Shown: in pieces, positions 11,883 through 56,800 of the stretch | Numbering within the stretch: the stretch's first letter is position 1 | Layout: every line of letters begins with the position of its first letter | The notes under the pieces: generated by a model | What the model was told of the DNA's origin: nothing | What the model saw: only the letters and a program-made list of their open reading frames with translations | The model's database searches: none | Translations under genes and position numbers: made by a program | Source of the DNA: an uncultured Methanobrevibacter sp. | GTDB lineage: Archaea; Methanobacteriota; Methanobacteria; Methanobacteriales; Methanobacteriaceae | DNA length: 64,000 bases | Reading direction: 5' to 3' | NCBI GenBank assembly: GCA_902789505.1 | Contig: CADAOO010000001.1 | Span: 1 to 64,000 of the forward strand

Positions 11883-14800
11883 ATGGATTATTTTGACAGA
11901 TTAGAAGCTGAAACCCATCACCTATACGATATTGCTAATGAAGCGAGATCAAAAGGTTTGGATGTTGAAACAAAAACTGAAGTACCTCTTGCAAAGGATT
12001 TAGCAGAAAGAGTAGAAGGACTTGTTGGTCCTGAAGGTGTAGCTCAACGTATTAAAGAATTAGAAGCAGACATAACAAGAGAAGAAGTTGCATTTGAAAT
12101 TGCGGCTGAAATTGCAGACGGAACTTTCGAACTTACCGGTGAAAAGGCAAAATACAACGAAGAGGAAAGATGTGACCAGGGTTTAAGAACTGCACTTGCA
12201 ATCTTAACAGAAGGAGTGGTGGCAGCACCGCTTGAAGGAATTTCACAGGTGAAAATCAAAGAGAACTTTGACGGGTCAAAATATATCGGAGTTTATTTTG
12301 CAGGACCTATCAGAAGTGCCGGAGGTACAGCTGCAGCATTGGCCGTTCTTTTAGGAGACAAAATTAGAAGAGCAATCAAAATTGATGCATTCAAACCTAT
12401 CGACGATGAAATTGAAAGATATGTAGAGGAAGTGGAACTTTACGAATCAGAAGTTACAAATTTACAATACTCACCAACACCAGAAGAAGTGAGATTCGCT
12501 GCAAAAAATATTCCTGTTGAAGTTACAGGAGAGCAAACCGATAAGGTTGAAGTGTCCCACAGGGATTTGGAACGTGTTGAAACAAACAATATTCGTGGAG
12601 GAGCACTTCTTGCGATGGTTGAGGGAGTAATCCAAAAATCCAAAAAGATCCATAAAATTTCCAAGAAGTTAGGTCTTGATTGGGAATGGCTTACGGAATA
12701 TTCAAAACCTAAAACCGATGATTCTAAAAGTGATGACGGAGGGGACTCCGACATTGTAAGCGAACCGAAATATATCCAGGATATCATCGGCGGAAGACCT
12801 ATTTTAGGTTATCCTTCTGAAAAAGGAGGATTCAGATTAAGATACGGTAGAAGCAGAAATACCGGACTGGCTACAATGGGAGTTCATCCTGCTACAATGG
12901 CATTGCTTGAATTTTTGGCCGTTGGAACACAGCTTAAAATTGAATATCCCGGAAAGGGTAACTGTGTTGTTCCGGTCGACTCCATTGAAGGACCTACCGT
13001 CAAACTTAAAAACGGGGATGTTGTAGCAATCGACAGTATCCGCCAAGCACGTGAACTTAAAAAAGATGTTGTCGAAATTTTGTTTTTGGGAGATATGCTC
13101 GTTGCATTCGGAGAGTTCTTAAGAAATAACCAGCCACTATATCCATCAGGATGGTGTGAAGAATGGTGGATACAGCTATTGACCAGAAGCGAAAACTTTG
13201 ATGAAAACAACAACGATTTGGATTTATACAAGCTCGAATATGAATATCTAAGTTCCATTGAAGCATTTACATTATCAAAGAAATATGATATTCCGCTTCA
13301 TCCAAAATACACATACTGCTATAATGATGTAACCATTGCAGATTTAAATTCATTGATTGACCTGATGAACAAATGCAAATCAAGTTATAACCCTGATGAG
13401 GGAATCAAACTGGATTTATCCTATCCTAAAAGAACACTGGAGATAATTGGTGTTCCGCATATCGTTCGTGACGGAAAAATCATCATCAACAAGGACCATG
13501 CTTATGCCCTTCTTGTTACACTATCCAAAAAATTACCTGAAAAAAGCACAACTATAGAAGCGGTGAACGAAGTGTCTCCCGTTGAGATTAAAAATAAGGC
13601 TCCTGCATATATCGGTACCCGTGTAGGCAGACCTGAAAAATCCAAGGAAAGATTAATGAAACCTGCCCCTCATGGATTATTCCCTATTGGCAATTACGGC
13701 GGTTCCAGAAGACTTGTGGCTACTGCTGCCAAAAAGGGAAAAATAAAAGTTGAACTGTCAAGAAGAAGATGTACCAATCCGGAATGCGGAATAAGTTCAT
13801 TCAATTCCCTTTGTCCGAAATGCGGACATCCAACCGAAATCAGTTCCCCAAGTTCAAAAAACATTCCTCTTGCAACCATGCTTAAGAATGCCTCCGACAA
13901 TGTTAAAGTAAGAAGAGTCGATGAGGTAAAAGGAGTTGTCGGAATGATTTCAGAAGCCAAACTGCCAGAACCTCTTGAAAAAGGAATATTAAGAGCTAAA
14001 AATGAGGTATTTACTTTCAAAGACGGAACAATACGCCATGATTCAACCGACTTGCCTCTGACACATTTCATTCCAAAAGAAATTGGAGTGACTGTTGAAA
14101 AATTATTGGAAATGGGTTATGAAAAGGACTGCTATGGAAATCCGATTGAAAGTGAAGACCAGATTATTGAATTAAGAGTTCAGGATATTGTAATTTCCGA
14201 TAATTGTGGCGAATATCTGCTTAGAACAGCTCAATTCATAGACGATGAGCTTACCCGATACTATGGAATGGAGCCATTCTACAATGTCAAAGAAAAAAGT
14301 GATTTGATTGGACATTTGGTTGCAGGTCTTGCACCACACACATCCGCAGGCGTTTTAGGAAGAATTGTTGGATTTACAAAGGCTTTGGGTTGTTATGCAC
14401 ACCCCTATTTCCATTCTGCAAAACGTAGAAACTGTGACAGTGATGAAGATGCAATAATGTTGCTGCTGGATGCGTTAATCAACTTTTCAAAAACATACTT
14501 GCCAAATACCCGAGGAGGAAGTATGGATGCTCCTTTGGTTTTATCTTCAAGAATTGACCCTGAAGAGATCGATGACGAATCTCACAACCTGGACATATTT
14601 GAAAGGTTCCCTGTTGAATTTTATGAAGAAACCTACACTCCACACAAACCTGCAGACGTCCTGGATTATATCGATAATGTAGAAATGCATCTGGGAACAC
14701 CGCAGCAATATGAAGGGCTGATGTTTTCACACCACACTTCAAGCATTCACGCAGGCCCTACAGTATGTCTTTACAAGAGACTGCCTTCAATGAGGGAAAA

Positions 14801-15182
14801 GGTAGAAGCCCAAATCAGCCTCGCCGAAACCATCCGTGCCGTTGACCAGCGTGGAGTTGTGGAAAAAGTTCTATCTTCACACTTCCTGCCCGACATAATG
14901 GGCAATTCAAGAGCATTTTCCAAGCAAAAGGTAAGATGTACCAAATGCGGTGCAAAATATCGGAGAATGCCGCTTACCGGAAAATGCAGCTGTGGAGGTA
15001 ACCTTATCCTTTCCGTTTCAAAAGGTTCAGTTACAAAGTACCTTGAAATTTCAAGAGACTTGGTAAGCAGATACCCTGTTTCCCATTACCTAAAACAGCG
15101 TTTAGAAATTCAAGAGTTTGGAATAAACTCGCTTTTTGAAAGTGATAAATCCAAACAAAGTTCTTTAGACATTTTCTTCTAA
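11883..15182 (+). CDS. polC: DNA polymerase II (family D) large subunit DP2
   Basis: This is the catalytic subunit of the archaeal replicative D-family polymerase, 1099 residues and without an intein. The N-terminal region reads MDYFDRLEAETHHLYDIANEARSKGLD. IRSAGGTAAALAVLLGDKIR lies at about 145-165. A first zinc ribbon (CTNPECG...CPKCG) is at about 629-650. The active-site block NTRGGSMDAPLVLSSRIDPEEIDDE is at about 873-897, with catalytic Asp residues. A second zinc ribbon (CTKCGAKYRRMPLTGKCSCGG) is at about 1019-1039. The C-terminal KQSSLDIFF resembles a PCNA-interacting peptide. The gene for the small subunit DP1 is not in this window. Confidence 0.98.
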   Translation: MDYFDRLEAETHHLYDIANEARSKGLDVETKTEVPLAKDLAERVEGLVGPEGVAQRIKELEADITREEVAFEIAAEIADGTFELTGEKAKYNEEERCDQGLRTALAILTEGVVAAPLEGISQVKIKENFDGSKYIGVYFAGPIRSAGGTAAALAVLLGDKIRRAIKIDAFKPIDDEIERYVEEVELYESEVTNLQYSPTPEEVRFAAKNIPVEVTGEQTDKVEVSHRDLERVETNNIRGGALLAMVEGVIQKSKKIHKISKKLGLDWEWLTEYSKPKTDDSKSDDGGDSDIVSEPKYIQDIIGGRPILGYPSEKGGFRLRYGRSRNTGLATMGVHPATMALLEFLAVGTQLKIEYPGKGNCVVPVDSIEGPTVKLKNGDVVAIDSIRQARELKKDVVEILFLGDMLVAFGEFLRNNQPLYPSGWCEEWWIQLLTRSENFDENNNDLDLYKLEYEYLSSIEAFTLSKKYDIPLHPKYTYCYNDVTIADLNSLIDLMNKCKSSYNPDEGIKLDLSYPKRTLEIIGVPHIVRDGKIIINKDHAYALLVTLSKKLPEKSTTIEAVNEVSPVEIKNKAPAYIGTRVGRPEKSKERLMKPAPHGLFPIGNYGGSRRLVATAAKKGKIKVELSRRRCTNPECGISSFNSLCPKCGHPTEISSPSSKNIPLATMLKNASDNVKVRRVDEVKGVVGMISEAKLPEPLEKGILRAKNEVFTFKDGTIRHDSTDLPLTHFIPKEIGVTVEKLLEMGYEKDCYGNPIESEDQIIELRVQDIVISDNCGEYLLRTAQFIDDELTRYYGMEPFYNVKEKSDLIGHLVAGLAPHTSAGVLGRIVGFTKALGCYAHPYFHSAKRRNCDSDEDAIMLLLDALINFSKTYLPNTRGGSMDAPLVLSSRIDPEEIDDESHNLDIFERFPVEFYEETYTPHKPADVLDYIDNVEMHLGTPQQYEGLMFSHHTSSIHAGPTVCLYKRLPSMREKVEAQISLAETIRAVDQRGVVEKVLSSHFLPDIMGNSRAFSKQKVRCTKCGAKYRRMPLTGKCSCGGNLILSVSKGSVTKYLEISRDLVSRYPVSHYLKQRLEIQEFGINSLFESDKSKQSSLDIFF

Positions 15183-15212: not shown

Positions 15213-15300
15213 CAATAGATTTCTACTATTTAAGACATATTAAATTTCAGAGTATATAAATACTGTTTGATGGAAGACGAACAATTTAAATACTAAAAAG

Positions 15301-15341
15301 TATAAAATACTTAACTAGAAAAAGTTCGTATTAATACGAAC
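15301..15341 (+). promoter_or_regulatory. nrdD: nrdD promoter with perfect MsvR-type palindrome
   Basis: TATAAAA at 15301-15307 is a good TATA box for nrdD. From 15324 to 15341 the sequence is the perfect palindrome GTTCGTATTAATACGAAC, that is TTCGTA-N4-TACGAA, placed over the expected transcription start. A nearly identical box is upstream of the msvR-like gene at 49783-49798. As I recall, the Methanothermobacter MsvR boxes are inverted repeats of this type; this was not checked. Repression by blocking the start site is inferred. Confidence 0.65.
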
Positions 15342-15400
15342 AATAATTATACAATTAAGTTCAATATTATAATTGAGTAAATTACATAAGGTGGATAATA

Positions 15401-17719
15401 ATGGAAAGAAGTTCAGAAATCGGACATAACTTAAATGAGTCCGTTAAAATAAACGTAGAGAAAAATAATGGAATAAAAGAAAGATTCAGCTATGAAAAGT
15501 TAGTTAAATCATTAGTAATGGTTGAAACTCCTTTTTTTGAATCTGATAAAATTGTAGCAACAGTCGTATCACAACTATATGATGGAATTACAACCAAAGA
15601 AATCAAAAAAATTGTATACGAATGTTTAGAAGATATCGATAGTGAAATTGCAAACAAATACTTAGCAAGCACTCAATTAAAAGTACGTACTTCAAGAGAC
15701 ACTATCGAAGCATTCGATTTATCTAAAATTGCTAACACATTAATTGAAGAAACCGGCGCCAGCCAGGAAACTGCTTTTGAAATTGCTACTGAAACCTGGA
15801 AAGAACTTAAAAAATTAAATGTTGAATACCTGACCGCACCTATGATCAGGGAAATGGTCAACACAAAATTGATTGAATACGGTTTGGAAGATTTAAGAAG
15901 CCGTTACACTCGTTTAGGTATACCTGTATACAACATTACCTCTTTAATTGAAAACGGTAACAGGGATAATGCAAATATGATTCACAACCCTGAAAGTATT
16001 CACAAACATGTAGCAGACGAAGCATTAAAACAATACGCATTATTAAAAATGCTCCCTGCACATTTGGCAGATGCACACATGGCAGGTGACATTCACATTC
16101 ACGATTTAGAATTCTTCGCAGGAAGACCTTTAAACTGTATGCAACATGATATAAGAACTTTCATCAAATACGGTCTTAAAGTAGACGGTACTGGTGACCA
16201 CACCTCCATTGCAGGCGCACCAAACCATATGGAAACCTTAATGAACCACACAGGTGAAATCATGCTTGCAGCTCAACAAAATATGTCCGGTGGACAAGGA
16301 ATGTCCTTATGGAACGTATTTGTAGCACCATTCGCAAGAGGCAGAAGCTATGAGGAAATCAAACAATCTGTCCAAATGCTTGTTTACAACCTTAACATGG
16401 CATATGCTGCAAGAGGATCCCAAGTTCCATTTACAAGTATGGCATTAGAATTTGGTGTTCCAGACTTCCTAAAAGATGAAACTGCATACGGACCAAAAGG
16501 TAAAGTGGTTGGAACCTACGCAGACTTCGAAGAAGAAACCAGATTAATCCAAAGAGCATTTACCGAAACATTGCTTGATGGAGACAACGAAGGTAAACCT
16601 CATTTATTCCCTAATACTATTTACACCTTACGTAAAGAAACCATGACCAGCGAATATGAAGAAGATATCCGCTTAGTTCATGAATTATCTGCAAAATACG
16701 GTTCATCATACTTCGTAAACATGTTCCCTAAATACAGAGGAAAAATGGCAAACTATATGGGTTGCAGAACTTGTTTACAAGATACCTGGACTGGTGACTG
16801 GGATCAAGACTGTTTAAGAACCGGTAACTTAGCTTACGTAACCTTAAACTTCCCAAGAATCGGATACCAATCCAAAGATGAATCCCAGGTATTTGAATAC
16901 TTGGATGAATACATGGATCTGGCTGTCGAAACCTTAATGCTTAGAAGAGAACAAGGATTAAAATGTTTAAATGATTTCCACATTTTACCATTCTTAAAAC
17001 AGCAAGTGGCTGAAGATTCATACTACAGAATCCAAAACTCAACCTTATCCTTTGGTTTCGTTGGGCTTAACGAAATGTTATTATCACTATTCGGTGAAGG
17101 TATTGAAAATCCAGATGCAAACAAATTTGGTGTAAAATGTCTTGAATATGTTAACCAAAGAGCTGACGAATTAAAAGATGAAACTGGACTCAGATGGAGT
17201 GTTTTACAAACTCCTGCAGAATCTACTGCATACAGATTTGCAACACTCGATAAAAAACAATTCGGCGATCAGGCTATTGTACAGGGTGAAGGAAATGCAA
17301 ATTACTACACAAACTCTTCACATGTGCCTGTAGATACTGGAGCTTCCTTAATTGAAAAAATTAAAATCGAAGAACAATACCACAGTTTAACTCCTGGCGG
17401 ACACATTTTCCATGCATTCATGGGAGAATCTTACTCTGATCCTGACTCATTAATGAGTCTAACCAATAAAATTGCTAAAAAATCCGATATCGGATTCTGG
17501 GCTTACAGCTCAGCTTTAAGTTTCTGCCTTAAATGTAAAACCTTAATGAAAGGTTTAAACAATACTTGTCCTACCTGCGGTGAAAGCGAAGATGTAGAAT
17601 GGTATGACAGAATTACCGGATACGTACAACAAGTTGGACGTGCAAAATCTGCATCCGGTGGCTGGAACCCTGGTAAACGTCAAGAATTAATTGACAGAAG
17701 AAGATTTGAAGATAACTAA
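15401..17719 (+). CDS. nrdD: Anaerobic (class III) ribonucleoside-triphosphate reductase
   Basis: NrdD makes deoxyribonucleotides with a glycyl radical and is destroyed by oxygen. An ATP-cone regulatory domain covers about residues 15-105. The barrel follows, with DIHIHDLEFFAGRPLNCMQHD near 228-249. The C-terminal zinc site CLKCKTLMKGLNNTCPTCG is at about 709-727, and the glycyl-radical region is RITGYVQQVG near 738-747. The 772-residue length is normal and there is no intein. A GGTGG ribosome site lies 7 nt before the ATG. The activase gene nrdG is not adjacent. The promoter carries an MsvR-type palindrome and the gene ends in a strong hairpin. Confidence 0.97.
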   Translation: MERSSEIGHNLNESVKINVEKNNGIKERFSYEKLVKSLVMVETPFFESDKIVATVVSQLYDGITTKEIKKIVYECLEDIDSEIANKYLASTQLKVRTSRDTIEAFDLSKIANTLIEETGASQETAFEIATETWKELKKLNVEYLTAPMIREMVNTKLIEYGLEDLRSRYTRLGIPVYNITSLIENGNRDNANMIHNPESIHKHVADEALKQYALLKMLPAHLADAHMAGDIHIHDLEFFAGRPLNCMQHDIRTFIKYGLKVDGTGDHTSIAGAPNHMETLMNHTGEIMLAAQQNMSGGQGMSLWNVFVAPFARGRSYEEIKQSVQMLVYNLNMAYAARGSQVPFTSMALEFGVPDFLKDETAYGPKGKVVGTYADFEEETRLIQRAFTETLLDGDNEGKPHLFPNTIYTLRKETMTSEYEEDIRLVHELSAKYGSSYFVNMFPKYRGKMANYMGCRTCLQDTWTGDWDQDCLRTGNLAYVTLNFPRIGYQSKDESQVFEYLDEYMDLAVETLMLRREQGLKCLNDFHILPFLKQQVAEDSYYRIQNSTLSFGFVGLNEMLLSLFGEGIENPDANKFGVKCLEYVNQRADELKDETGLRWSVLQTPAESTAYRFATLDKKQFGDQAIVQGEGNANYYTNSSHVPVDTGASLIEKIKIEEQYHSLTPGGHIFHAFMGESYSDPDSLMSLTNKIAKKSDIGFWAYSSALSFCLKCKTLMKGLNNTCPTCGESEDVEWYDRITGYVQQVGRAKSASGGWNPGKRQELIDRRRFEDN

Positions 17720-48148: not shown

Positions 48149-48853
48149 ATGAAAGAAAAAGGAAAATTGATTGGAATTGGTGTTGGACCCGGAGATACTG
48201 AATTACTTACTTTGAAAGCAGCTAGAATTTTAGAGACCGTTCCGGTAATATTTTCACCAAAATCATCAAAAGAAAAAGAAAGTATTGCATTATCCATTGT
48301 TAGGCCAATTCTTGAAAAAAGAAGCGATTACAAAAGACTAATGATTGTGGCACCGATATTTCCAATGATTGAAGATAAAGATGAACTTGAAAAAGTCTGG
48401 ACCAGTGCATCAGAGATGATTGCCCAATACTTAGACAGCGGAAGAGATGTGGCCTTCATAACCCTTGGAGACAGTTCAATATTCAGCACATACTCATATG
48501 TGCAAAAAAAATTAATCGGCAAATACGAAATTGAAACAGTTCCGGGCATCACATCATTTACTGCATGTGCCGCCGCTAAAAATGAAGCGCTTGTGGAGCA
48601 AAACGAAATTTTAACAATCGTGCCTAAAATTGATGACAGACTAAATAACGTATTGGATACCAGCGACTCAATCGTATTGATGAAAGCTTCCAGAAACACT
48701 ACCGAGCTAGAAGCAACAATTGAAGAGAAGAACAGACCTAAAGAAATCTATTCCGTTCAAAACTGCACCAGGGAAAATGAAAAAATAATTGAAGGATTTT
48801 CAAACGAAAAACCTTATTTGACAACTACAGTTATAAAATTCAAGGATGATTAA
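48149..48853 (+). CDS. cbiL: Cobalt-factor II C20-methyltransferase
   Basis: This SAM-dependent methyltransferase of corrin synthesis adds the C20 methyl group on the anaerobic cobalamin route. The tetrapyrrole-methylase pattern starts with GKLIGIGVGPGDTELLTLKAARIL. ITLGDSSIFSTYSYV lies at about 110-124, VPGITSFTACAAAKNEAL at about 136-153, and YSVQNCTRENEKI near the end. The 234-residue length is normal. The last 4 nt overlap the end of the converging regulator. Confidence 0.94.
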   Translation: MKEKGKLIGIGVGPGDTELLTLKAARILETVPVIFSPKSSKEKESIALSIVRPILEKRSDYKRLMIVAPIFPMIEDKDELEKVWTSASEMIAQYLDSGRDVAFITLGDSSIFSTYSYVQKKLIGKYEIETVPGITSFTACAAAKNEALVEQNEILTIVPKIDDRLNNVLDTSDSIVLMKASRNTTELEATIEEKNRPKEIYSVQNCTRENEKIIEGFSNEKPYLTTTVIKFKDD

Positions 48854-49620
48854 TAATTTTTGATCGGTAAGGGCTCTACCTCAAAAACACATTTTTCATC
48901 ACCCATAGTGTAACATTGAGTTTCAATTACACTGACCGGCAATTTGAAGTATTCAGTAAATAATGCTTCAAAAATTCCGGTATCCAAAAAACATGCAGGT
49001 TTTCCAGTCTTTGGGAGCAATTCACATTCAAAGCAATCGAAGGTTGTAATTTTAATGATTTGACCTAACTCGAATGTAATCCTGCCTAAACCTTTAGTTT
49101 CCCAAAACCTTGTGATATTTTGAATAAAAATATCCAAATCATCATCATAAAGTTTGCCGAAAATGGATTTGCCTATGCTGTTTCCGGTGGATTGTAAAAT
49201 TGGATCTATGTTTATTCCTTCCTGAATAAGCATGGATTTCAAGGTATGGAACAGCAATGTTGAAAATTCCGCATCATCATCAACAAGATTCTCAATAAGA
49301 TAGTCTGCCTGGGTTTCCTTAATCTCTTTTGGTTCTGTGCTGTTTACAGAACCCAGATATTTTGAATTTAAATAAAATATCTTTTTTCTGTTATCGACAG
49401 GGTGAACTCTATATGATATGATTCCACTTTCTCTTAAACTTTTTAAATGAACTGAAACTGTAGATTTTGATTTACCAGTATTACTGACAATTTCATCAAA
49501 TTCCATATCACTATCCCTGAGCATCTCCAAAATAGTGAGTTTCACCGGACTTTTGATTACATTGACGCCAATATTTTCATTAAAATTAGAAAAAATTTGG
49601 ATTGGTTTTCCTTCCTTCAT
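48850..49620 (-). CDS. msvR: MsvR-like redox regulator (HTH plus V4R domain)
   Basis: The protein has 256 residues. The N-terminal ArsR-like winged helix is at about 20-85 (SPVKLTILEMLRDSDMEFDEIVSNTGKSKSTVSVHLKSLRESGIISYRV). The C-terminal V4R domain has cysteines FDCFECELL, KPACFLDTG and ETQCYTMGDEKC. This domain order is that of MsvR, a methanogen-specific repressor whose cysteines sense oxidation and which controls oxygen-stress genes. The start is ATG 49620 with GGGGGATACC upstream. Two MsvR-type boxes lie upstream and one at nrdD, so autoregulation and nrdD control are inferred. Confidence 0.85.
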   Translation of the reverse strand: MKEGKPIQIFSNFNENIGVNVIKSPVKLTILEMLRDSDMEFDEIVSNTGKSKSTVSVHLKSLRESGIISYRVHPVDNRKKIFYLNSKYLGSVNSTEPKEIKETQADYLIENLVDDDAEFSTLLFHTLKSMLIQEGINIDPILQSTGNSIGKSIFGKLYDDDLDIFIQNITRFWETKGLGRITFELGQIIKITTFDCFECELLPKTGKPACFLDTGIFEALFTEYFKLPVSVIETQCYTMGDEKCVFEVEPLPIKNY

Positions 49621-49751: not shown

Positions 49752-49798
49752 ACGAACTGTTCGTATATAACAAGTAAAATAGTTCGTATGCTTACGAT
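49752..49798 (-). promoter_or_regulatory. msvR: Two MsvR-type boxes upstream of the regulator gene
   Basis: 49783-49798 reads TTCGTA-TGCT-TACGAT, one mismatch from TTCGTA-N4-TACGAA. 49752-49764 is ACGAACTGTTCGT, a perfect palindrome around one base and a variant of the same half-sites. On the minus strand a TATA-like TTATATAC (49771-49764) touches the second box and TTATATTATG lies just beyond the first. The layout suits self-repression. Confidence 0.6.
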
Positions 49799-54921: not shown

Positions 54922-56418
54922 TTAAACAATTGTTAAAGCATTTGGTACCTTTTTAAGAACATTTTCTTTAACTGGAATCATTGTTGAGGATGCGATTGAA
55001 AAGTCTGCATTTTTAGCTGCAGTCTTATCGTCTTTTTCCCCAATGACAGTAGCGTTTAACGCATCCTGCAAGTTATCAACAGTATTCTTTAATACCCATT
55101 CATCAACATCGGAAATTATGATTTCATCCGCAAATTTATCCAGTTCATTAGCTATTACCCAGGATATGAATCGTCCGCCGTGCAGTGCAACTGTATTTCC
55201 TTCAGCCAAATTAACAATATCCTCCAAGGTATGTTTTAATTGAATATTCTGATACATTCTAGAATTAACTAATGTTGCCCAATGTGCATCACCGACATGA
55301 TACGCACCAATCTTTCTTGGATATACATAGTCTGGCCCTGCAATTTTAACAGCGGTTGCCAAGGATAACAGGTCATGTTTCTGGACTGGAAGACCCCTGT
55401 TTGGGAATTCTTCATTAATTATTTGAATTATTCTTGGAAGTCCGAATTTGCCTCTTCTTGCGGTTCCAGGTTCATATCCGCACATATATCCATGATGGTT
55501 TTTTGGAAAACCGGTAATCACCATGTTTAAACCAGAACGTAATCCTGCACGGACCTCATGTTCGTAAGCCCCATTTGTTGCAACAACTTTTCCAGGAGAC
55601 AATATCCTTGCAGCGGCAATCGTTTTTGCAAAGCTTTCTGTTGTGTTTTCACATCTATTGAACGGACCTCCCTCAACAACAATAACATCGGCGCCGATTT
55701 CAATGGATTTTTCAAATCCGACGATTACTTCATCATAACCGTCGCCAACAAACATGATGGATTCCAAACCCCTGCCATATTTTTTGGCTAATTGTGCAAT
55801 ATCTTCAGCTTCCCTTAACGGTGCTGCATGACCGTCACCTGTTTGTTCACAAGTGACATTAACTGCAACGGATGAGGATAATTTAACCCATTTCTCCTTG
55901 TCATCCTTTTGTTCCAATTCCTTATCAATTAGACGTTCATGAATTCTTCCGCGCGGACATTCAGTGAATGCAGGACCCTTGTTATAACATTCACCGCCGC
56001 AGCCACTGATATTTTTTGGAAGTCTCATAGCTCCATTTTCTCCGAAATGATCCAAATCAAGGGGAACATCAACGACTTCATGGACTTTTTGCATTACCTC
56101 AAGTCCGGTCATCCCAAATTTTTCCCCAATATCTGAAAATGCATAAGCGCAAATATGGATTGGAGCACCAATCATATCTGATAAACGACAATTTCCCAAT
56201 AAATCCGTTAACTCCAAATCGGATGCACATGTTCCTGCAACAACTTCAGTCAGATCACAGCCTAAAGGAAATCTTTTAAATTGCATTCCAAGTTTCATTG
56301 TTTCTTCCAATGAAAGTTCAGAAATTGCATCAACAACAGATGTCACATCTTTGTCCATTTTTGAAATTTCAATCGCCGCCTCATCATCATGAACAGCATT
56401 TTTTATTAAATCATACAT
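54922..56418 (-). CDS. hcgG: FeGP-cofactor biosynthesis protein HcgG (HmdC)
   Basis: The 498-residue protein matches the HcgG/HmdC family that co-occurs with [Fe]-hydrogenase and is needed to make its iron-guanylylpyridinol cofactor. Blocks include NISGCGGECYNKGPAFTECPRGRIHERLIDKELEQ with conserved cysteines, NVTCEQTGDGHAAPLREAEDI, VVEGGPFNRCENTTESFAKTIAAARIL and VALHGGRFISWVIANELDKF. ATG 56418 follows GGAGAATTTTT. It is divergent from hmd across a 380-bp regulatory region. Confidence 0.9.
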   Translation of the reverse strand: MYDLIKNAVHDDEAAIEISKMDKDVTSVVDAISELSLEETMKLGMQFKRFPLGCDLTEVVAGTCASDLELTDLLGNCRLSDMIGAPIHICAYAFSDIGEKFGMTGLEVMQKVHEVVDVPLDLDHFGENGAMRLPKNISGCGGECYNKGPAFTECPRGRIHERLIDKELEQKDDKEKWVKLSSSVAVNVTCEQTGDGHAAPLREAEDIAQLAKKYGRGLESIMFVGDGYDEVIVGFEKSIEIGADVIVVEGGPFNRCENTTESFAKTIAAARILSPGKVVATNGAYEHEVRAGLRSGLNMVITGFPKNHHGYMCGYEPGTARRGKFGLPRIIQIINEEFPNRGLPVQKHDLLSLATAVKIAGPDYVYPRKIGAYHVGDAHWATLVNSRMYQNIQLKHTLEDIVNLAEGNTVALHGGRFISWVIANELDKFADEIIISDVDEWVLKNTVDNLQDALNATVIGEKDDKTAAKNADFSIASSTMIPVKENVLKKVPNALTIV

Positions 56419-56800
56419 GAAAAATTCTCCAAAATTTAAGTTCAACAATATATTTTTCAGTGAAATCTTGAATAAATATGTTTCGATTTAGGCATGCCTA
56501 AATTAAATTTAAACAAATAGTATTACTAAATAAAAAGTATTACTAATTTCTATAATACAAAAGAAATAGTATTAATAGTATTACTAAAAAAGAAAAATTT
56601 ATAGAAAAAATAATACTAAATAAAGCCCAATGTAAAGATTTAAATAATATTACAATTTAAATAAAATATATTACTACATGGCATAAACTACCATAATTAT
56701 TTAATAATAGCAATTTTAAATACTTCTGCCATGTAGTAAAACTTTTTTAAATTTATACCAAATTTAAAAAAAGTTCATTAAATAATATGGAGACAAAAAA
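56419..56800. promoter_or_regulatory. hcgG-hmd divergent control region with repeated AGTATTACT motifs and a 13-bp inverted repeat
   Basis: AGTATTACTA-type motifs recur at about 56519, 56538 and 56580, with AGTATTAATAGTATTACTA as a double copy. TTACTACATGGCA (56671-56683) is exactly complementary to TGCCATGTAGTAA (56727-56739), 43 nt apart, and ACTTTTTTAAATTT follows the right arm. This could be a leader hairpin or attenuator of hmd, or a pair of operator half-sites. Confidence 0.5.

Follow-up and report, generated by a model that had tools for sequence, protein, structure and literature searches.

The window analysed here is the whole 64,000-nucleotide stretch of Methanobrevibacter DNA introduced above. 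In the gap between polC/DP2 and nrdD it carries an 18-bp perfect palindrome (GTTCGTATTAATACGAAC) at 15324-15341, present just as the original prediction described; a weakened second copy, absent from that prediction, lies 59 bp further upstream, and a gene for a redox regulator of the MsvR family is found in the same window. The features on which the argument turns are the following:

11883-15182: polC/DP2.
15265-15282, no strand: predicted distal operator box GTTTGATGGAAGACGAAC, degenerate in the window (1 mismatch) and intact in most relatives.
15285-15293, plus strand: TATA-like element TTTAAATAC, directly downstream of the distal box (TTTATATAC in relatives).
15324-15341, no strand: predicted proximal operator box, a perfect palindrome of GTTCGTATT and AATACGAAC, from the sequence, the genome scan and the relatives' alignment.
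15347-15352, plus strand: TATA-like element aaTTATAC, directly downstream of the proximal box, its position conserved in relatives.
15401-17719, plus strand: nrdD, class III (anaerobic, glycyl-radical) ribonucleoside-triphosphate reductase, 772 aa (Pfam NRDD and ATP-cone; NCBIfam TIGR02487 above cut-off).
48850-49620, minus strand: msvR, regulator with an ArsR-type winged helix and a V4R domain, 256 aa (Pfam, NCBIfam, alignments).
49752-49764, no strand: candidate everted msvR operator ACGAACTGTTCGT, of the form ACGAAC-N-GTTCGT and conserved among 30 relatives.
49782-49788, no strand: conserved msvR half-site GTTCGTA (TACGAAC on the msvR strand), the left arm of a palindrome copy at 49783-49798.

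The MsvR motif has been given as TTCGTAN4TACGAA, or TTCGN7-9CGAA in relaxed form (PMC3729527), in line with the prediction that MsvR recognises inverted repeats of this kind. A perfect match to TTCGTAN4TACGAA is found at 15325-15340, and this nrdD copy is the sole one in the window, as had been claimed, and also in the entire assembly (1,894,704 bases, 84% complete). A genome scan had been proposed as the check, with many random copies inside coding genes as the outcome that would speak against an operator. The scan returned six places with one mismatch, the msvR copy included; of the other five, three fall between genes and two within coding sequence or on its border, and the adverse outcome was thus not seen. 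We rejected these others as operators, since they are coding or isolated, bar one upstream of a radical-SAM gene. That copy (TTCGTATCAATACAAA; G000:C40:8056-8071, or L006:1501-1516) has a TATA box just upstream and the radical-SAM gene, possibly NifB-like, downstream.

The box is conserved throughout the genus. The pattern GTTCGN8CGAAC occurs perfectly in 62 of 67 genus genomes, with 1-4 copies in each (the reversed control pattern gave 0-2). Of the 63 genomes whose assembly includes nrdD, 62 have a perfect copy, and the remaining one, G062, has a degenerate box at nrdD; the four whose assembly lacks nrdD (G068, G082, G092, and G096) have no perfect copy. Among the 38 genomes with matches listed, every one carries the pattern no more than 260 bp upstream of nrdD, and such copies account for 57 of the 75 sites. 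We also compared 42 nrdD loci with the window, anchored on the box; the loci, drawn from named genomes and from whole genomes of the family, were picked after the first scan, and the closest named ones come from gut MAGs (e.g., goat jejunum RGIG2541) with 97-99% protein identity. In each arm the outer five bases hardly vary, in contrast to the drifting spacer and flanks. Although shuffled windows contain on average 0.675 perfect palindromes of at least 18 bp, GTTCGN8CGAAC is expected only about 0.01 times per window (Markov shuffle), and the site is kept across ~60 species, which refutes a chance palindrome and makes that explanation negligible. Because of these comparative data across the genus, we regard the nrdD palindrome as a real, conserved operator, as judged from sequence comparison; taken as a whole, the original sighting is partly confirmed.

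Most species have two boxes, and one clade has a single box. Bacterial ribonucleotide reductase genes are likewise controlled through paired palindromic promoter boxes, by NrdR, and dATP-sensing repression by an NrdR-like protein would fit this likeness; but the boxes here are usually 55-60 bp apart, also 78-79 bp, without helical phasing in the box-anchored comparison, and their sequence is unlike the NrdR box. A search with TIGR00244, which detected NrdR in 9 control bacteria, gave nothing above its threshold in any of the 25 genus genomes covered (G000 had no match at all, and G076 a single sub-threshold one), and NrdR was rejected as the regulator for this reason; we consider such control extremely improbable.

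The arrangement of the boxes relative to the promoter is also conserved. A TATA element lies 2-5 bp downstream of each box across the relatives (+11 to +19 from the box centre), so that in two-box promoters each box has a TATA of its own; in the single-box clade the TATA after the box reads TATATATAC. With a conserved TATA directly downstream, the box covers the BRE or the upstream edge of the TATA, a placement from which a bound protein could block the TATA/BRE or the start site. The original prediction had the box over the transcription start, 17 nt past a TATA box, and this could not be confirmed: the upstream TATAAAATA (15301-15309) is not conserved in relatives and each box abuts a downstream TATA, so we rejected the start-site geometry as the general case. 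In the source species TATAAAATA could still be a working TATA, which would put the proximal box on the start site, a placement already known for M. thermautotrophicus fpaA (PMC3729527). The flanks of the nrdD box are AT-rich (aaaaa...aataattatacaatt), and AT-rich flanks were reported necessary for DNA binding by MaMsvR, the M. acetivorans protein (PMC3729527).

The same alignments bear on whether the palindrome acts as RNA, in the form of a leader element or a terminator. It is intergenic and, being perfect, can fold, but the arms are invariant without compensatory changes while the inner pairs break freely (pair 7 is complementary in 2 of 30 distal boxes), the box is upstream of the conserved TATA, and an everted form of the same half-site recurs at other promoters. 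This failure to keep the inner pairing speaks against an RNA hairpin, which we hold to be very improbable.

The protein encoded at 48850-49620, called msvR-like in the original prediction, passes the NCBIfam MsvR equivalog model NF053755 (308.7 bits; cut-off 220), and its Pfam domains HTH_5 (PF01022) and V4R (PF02830) are both above cut-off. It has the three V4R cysteines of the MsvR family (C210, C236, and C244), and in alignments the V4R-region cysteines C196, C199, C210, C236, and C244 are invariant with Methanothermobacter MsvR. As is typical of the family, its own promoter carries a TTCGTA/TACGAA box, though arranged otherwise than the published inward repeat. At its 3′-end msvR faces a convergent gene of the tetrapyrrole-methylase kind both in the window (by Pfam) and in Methanothermobacter (by the neighbour's sequence similarity), and several genus members share with M. 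thermautotrophicus the divergent arrangement of msvR and fpaA. We found MsvR in all 67 genus genomes, and no relatives of it in the PDB. Many genus genomes, though not all, also have a second MsvR-like winged-helix/V4R paralogue of ~46-50% identity (for example, at G045:C10:51608, G078:C12:38575, and G097:C7:43855, with ~20 others).

The two promoters in the window share a half-site rather than a whole palindrome. The copy at 49783-49798, proposed as the counterpart of the nrdD box, does lie upstream of the V4R gene with one mismatch, but its inward-facing second arm is kept in only ~3 of 30 relatives; it does not hold as a conserved msvR element, and with its outer arm unconserved we rejected it as an operator common to msvR and nrdD. 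What is conserved is ACGAACAGTTCGT, found at msvR promoters in nearly all of the 30 relatives, and in most of them a TACGAAC half-site; everted ACGAACAGTTCGT is nearly exclusive to msvR genus-wide. In the genus, an everted ACGAAC-aa-TTCGTATAAAAC is conserved upstream of unlinked fpaA. In a Methanothermobacter genome of 1,751,377 bases, which we take to be M. thermautotrophicus Delta H, the msvR/fpaA promoter has a box of the same form (GTTCGTATATCATCGAA) and a TACGAAC half-site; the intergenic region AGTTCGTATATCATCGAATGTACTATACTATACGAACTTCTATATAA consists of the TTCG-N8-CGAA box and this half-site set against the TATA. The full nrdD-type palindrome (GTTCGCTTCTCCTCGAAC) occurs at msvR/fpaA in a further genus of the family, ATACGAACAGT is found in outward form upstream of nrdD in 6 of 8 Methanothermobacter genomes, and several Methanosphaera-type species have two direct ACGAAC repeats before the nrdD TATA. 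The TACGAAC half-site is thus common to nrdD, msvR, and fpaA across the order, in differing arrangements. In the genus it faces inward at nrdD and is everted at msvR/fpaA, so that one protein must accept both, a point against MsvR as the binder at nrdD.

Two MsvR systems have been studied. In M. thermautotrophicus, MsvR controls msvR and fpaA-rlp-rub (Karr 2010, cited in PMC3729527), the reduced protein keeping TBP/TFB off the promoter and so repressing msvR and fpaA (PMC3729527). The nrdD promoter resembles this system in its orthologous regulator, its TTCG-N8-CGAA box, and the TACGAAC half-site next to the TATA; it differs in having two copies of the box, each with its own TATA, and in the target, which is an oxygen-detoxifying operon there and a gene of DNA-precursor synthesis here, with MsvR as the candidate binder. 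Autoregulation by MaMsvR is similar in that the boxes (TTCGN7-9CGAA) lie just upstream of the TATA and a BRE block was proposed, and differs in that its own promoter is the sole target shown; oxidised M. acetivorans MsvR releases DNA, and the protein left some of the TTCGN8CGAA sequences offered to it unbound (PMC3729527), which likewise counts against MsvR at nrdD.

That an MsvR-type operator controls nrdD is well supported in silico, with MsvR as the candidate binder, by the conservation of the box, the common half-site, the M. thermautotrophicus box, and the equivalog match. We put at roughly 70% the probability that the palindrome is an MsvR operator on the nrdD promoter, repressing by blocking TBP/TFB and released on oxidation; binding, repression, and the oxidation response are what we infer at nrdD, and the direction of control is likewise presumed. 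An MsvR dimer would read two TACGAAC half-sites (GTTCG-N8-CGAAC) and, as the box abuts the TATA/BRE element, should exclude TBP/TFB, restricting nrdD under reducing conditions. Once its V4R cysteines are oxidised, MsvR would be released or reshaped, and nrdD transcription would rise. Oxygen cleaves NrdD at its glycyl radical, and the raised transcription would replace the enzyme destroyed in this way. Against this reading, M. thermautotrophicus MsvR binds DNA in both redox states, which makes the direction of the response less certain, and one would hardly expect an essential gene to be under a repressor that is active while the cell grows normally without oxygen. MsvR or a relative might instead activate nrdD by recruiting TFB/TBP from a BRE-adjacent site: activator sites can adjoin the BRE, and nrdD is needed in reduced growing cells, the state in which M. 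acetivorans MsvR binds DNA. The gap of 2-5 bp between box and TATA speaks against activation, as does repression through the blocking of general factors by both studied MsvR proteins (PMC3729527), and we consider it unlikely, if worth keeping in mind.

The set of genes behind such promoters seems to be small. Searching 37 genus genomes for the box followed by a TATA gave essentially two genes, nrdD and a gene for a 154-aa HEAT-repeat protein, with one exception among the matches (genes were assigned by reading the coordinates). The HEAT-repeat gene was first met through a separate GTTCGN8CGAAA match in the genome; its promoter conserves GTTCGTATRYTATCGAAATAYTTTTATAT, the module is very strongly conserved across the genus, and only two central positions set its core apart from the M. 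thermautotrophicus box GTTCGTATATCATCGAA. It lies at G000:C72:2578-2605 (L122, L315; homologues L316-L344), divergent from an isopropylmalate/isocitrate-dehydrogenase-like gene.

This short list of targets speaks for the main rival, namely a regulator dedicated to nrdD, such as a paralogue of MsvR or some unknown winged-helix protein, with the MsvR half-site shared by chance: the box and TATA modules mark essentially nrdD and the HEAT-repeat gene rather than the everted msvR/fpaA promoters, and MsvR paralogues are indeed encoded in many genus genomes. However, the paralogues are missing from many box-bearing genomes, with MsvR itself ubiquitous, and 15 of 17 bases agree between the HEAT box GTTCGTATACTATCGAA and the msvR/fpaA box of M. 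thermautotrophicus; we regard a dedicated regulator as rather unlikely. On the preferred reading, control by MsvR, a wider proposal can be made, to which we give somewhat better than even odds: throughout the Methanobacteriales, MsvR would tie the supply of deoxynucleotides to the sensing of oxygen, with nrdD (and the HEAT-repeat gene) as an old branch of its regulon built from tandem operator and TATA modules.

The distribution of boxes in other genera is uneven. Where a genus has nrdD boxes, msvR boxes are mostly present as well; in the filiformis-, arboriphilus-, curvatus-, and Methanorudis-type genera the nrdD box is absent and the msvR boxes are mostly missing too, and the cuticularis-, Methanosphaera-, and Methanovirga-type genera and the g6 genus show a mixed pattern. 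Of the four box-less genera, three have the recognition helix SKSTVSVHL without change, and the curvatus type differs slightly; since the helix is essentially the same, we rejected altered MsvR specificity as the cause of box loss. That four genera have MsvR with a largely unchanged recognition helix and no nrdD box counts against the MsvR reading, and so does G006 (99% complete, fragmented), which has a near-box at nrdD and no MsvR match.

As a proposal from sequence, nrdD would be a new target of a known regulator. No literature linking MsvR to nrdD or ribonucleotide reductase was found, the target list of Karr 2010 lying outside that search, and nrd genes go unmentioned in the main text of the MaMsvR paper (PMC3729527); within this scope the target is undescribed, as originally suggested. 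If true, this would give an archaeal class III ribonucleotide reductase its first known redox regulator. This bears on the open question of how DNA synthesis is protected in strict anaerobes of the gut and rumen despite an enzyme destroyed by oxygen, and hardly any MsvR targets are known apart from msvR and fpaA; with a small conserved set of targets in the genus that dominates methane production in animals, both questions become testable with one protein and two DNA fragments.

Several further observations concern the box, the window, and nrdD. In one sub-clade of the genus, GTTCGN8CGAAC lies upstream of a Cdc48-family AAA ATPase gene, between it and a prephenate-dehydrogenase-like gene (L159, L161, L162, L171, L172, L173, and L175). 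In L165, L166, L168, L169, and L174 it is inside a repeated element (ttggcataacgcacttTAAATTATCTACTACTTTTAGTgaaattt...) whose neighbours differ per genome and which looks like a small mobile element or a terminator repeat. A second 18-bp perfect palindrome in the window, ATTTAGGCATGCCTAAAT at 56486-56503, is just upstream of a minus-strand ORF (54922-56448). The nrdD 5′ leader contains a conserved hairpin, GATTAGTA..GATAG-loop-CTATC..TACTAATC (GAGAG-loop-CTCTC in another clade), in L029, L030, L032-L034, L037, L041, and L072 (~95 nt before the ATG) and further in L019, L026, L038, L042, and L066; the leader had no match in Rfam, and that of the window is shorter and without the hairpin. Some Methanosphaera-type genomes encode a second, divergent NrdD of ~45% identity (G108:C99, G109:C1:1615360, G107:C43, and G110:C14).
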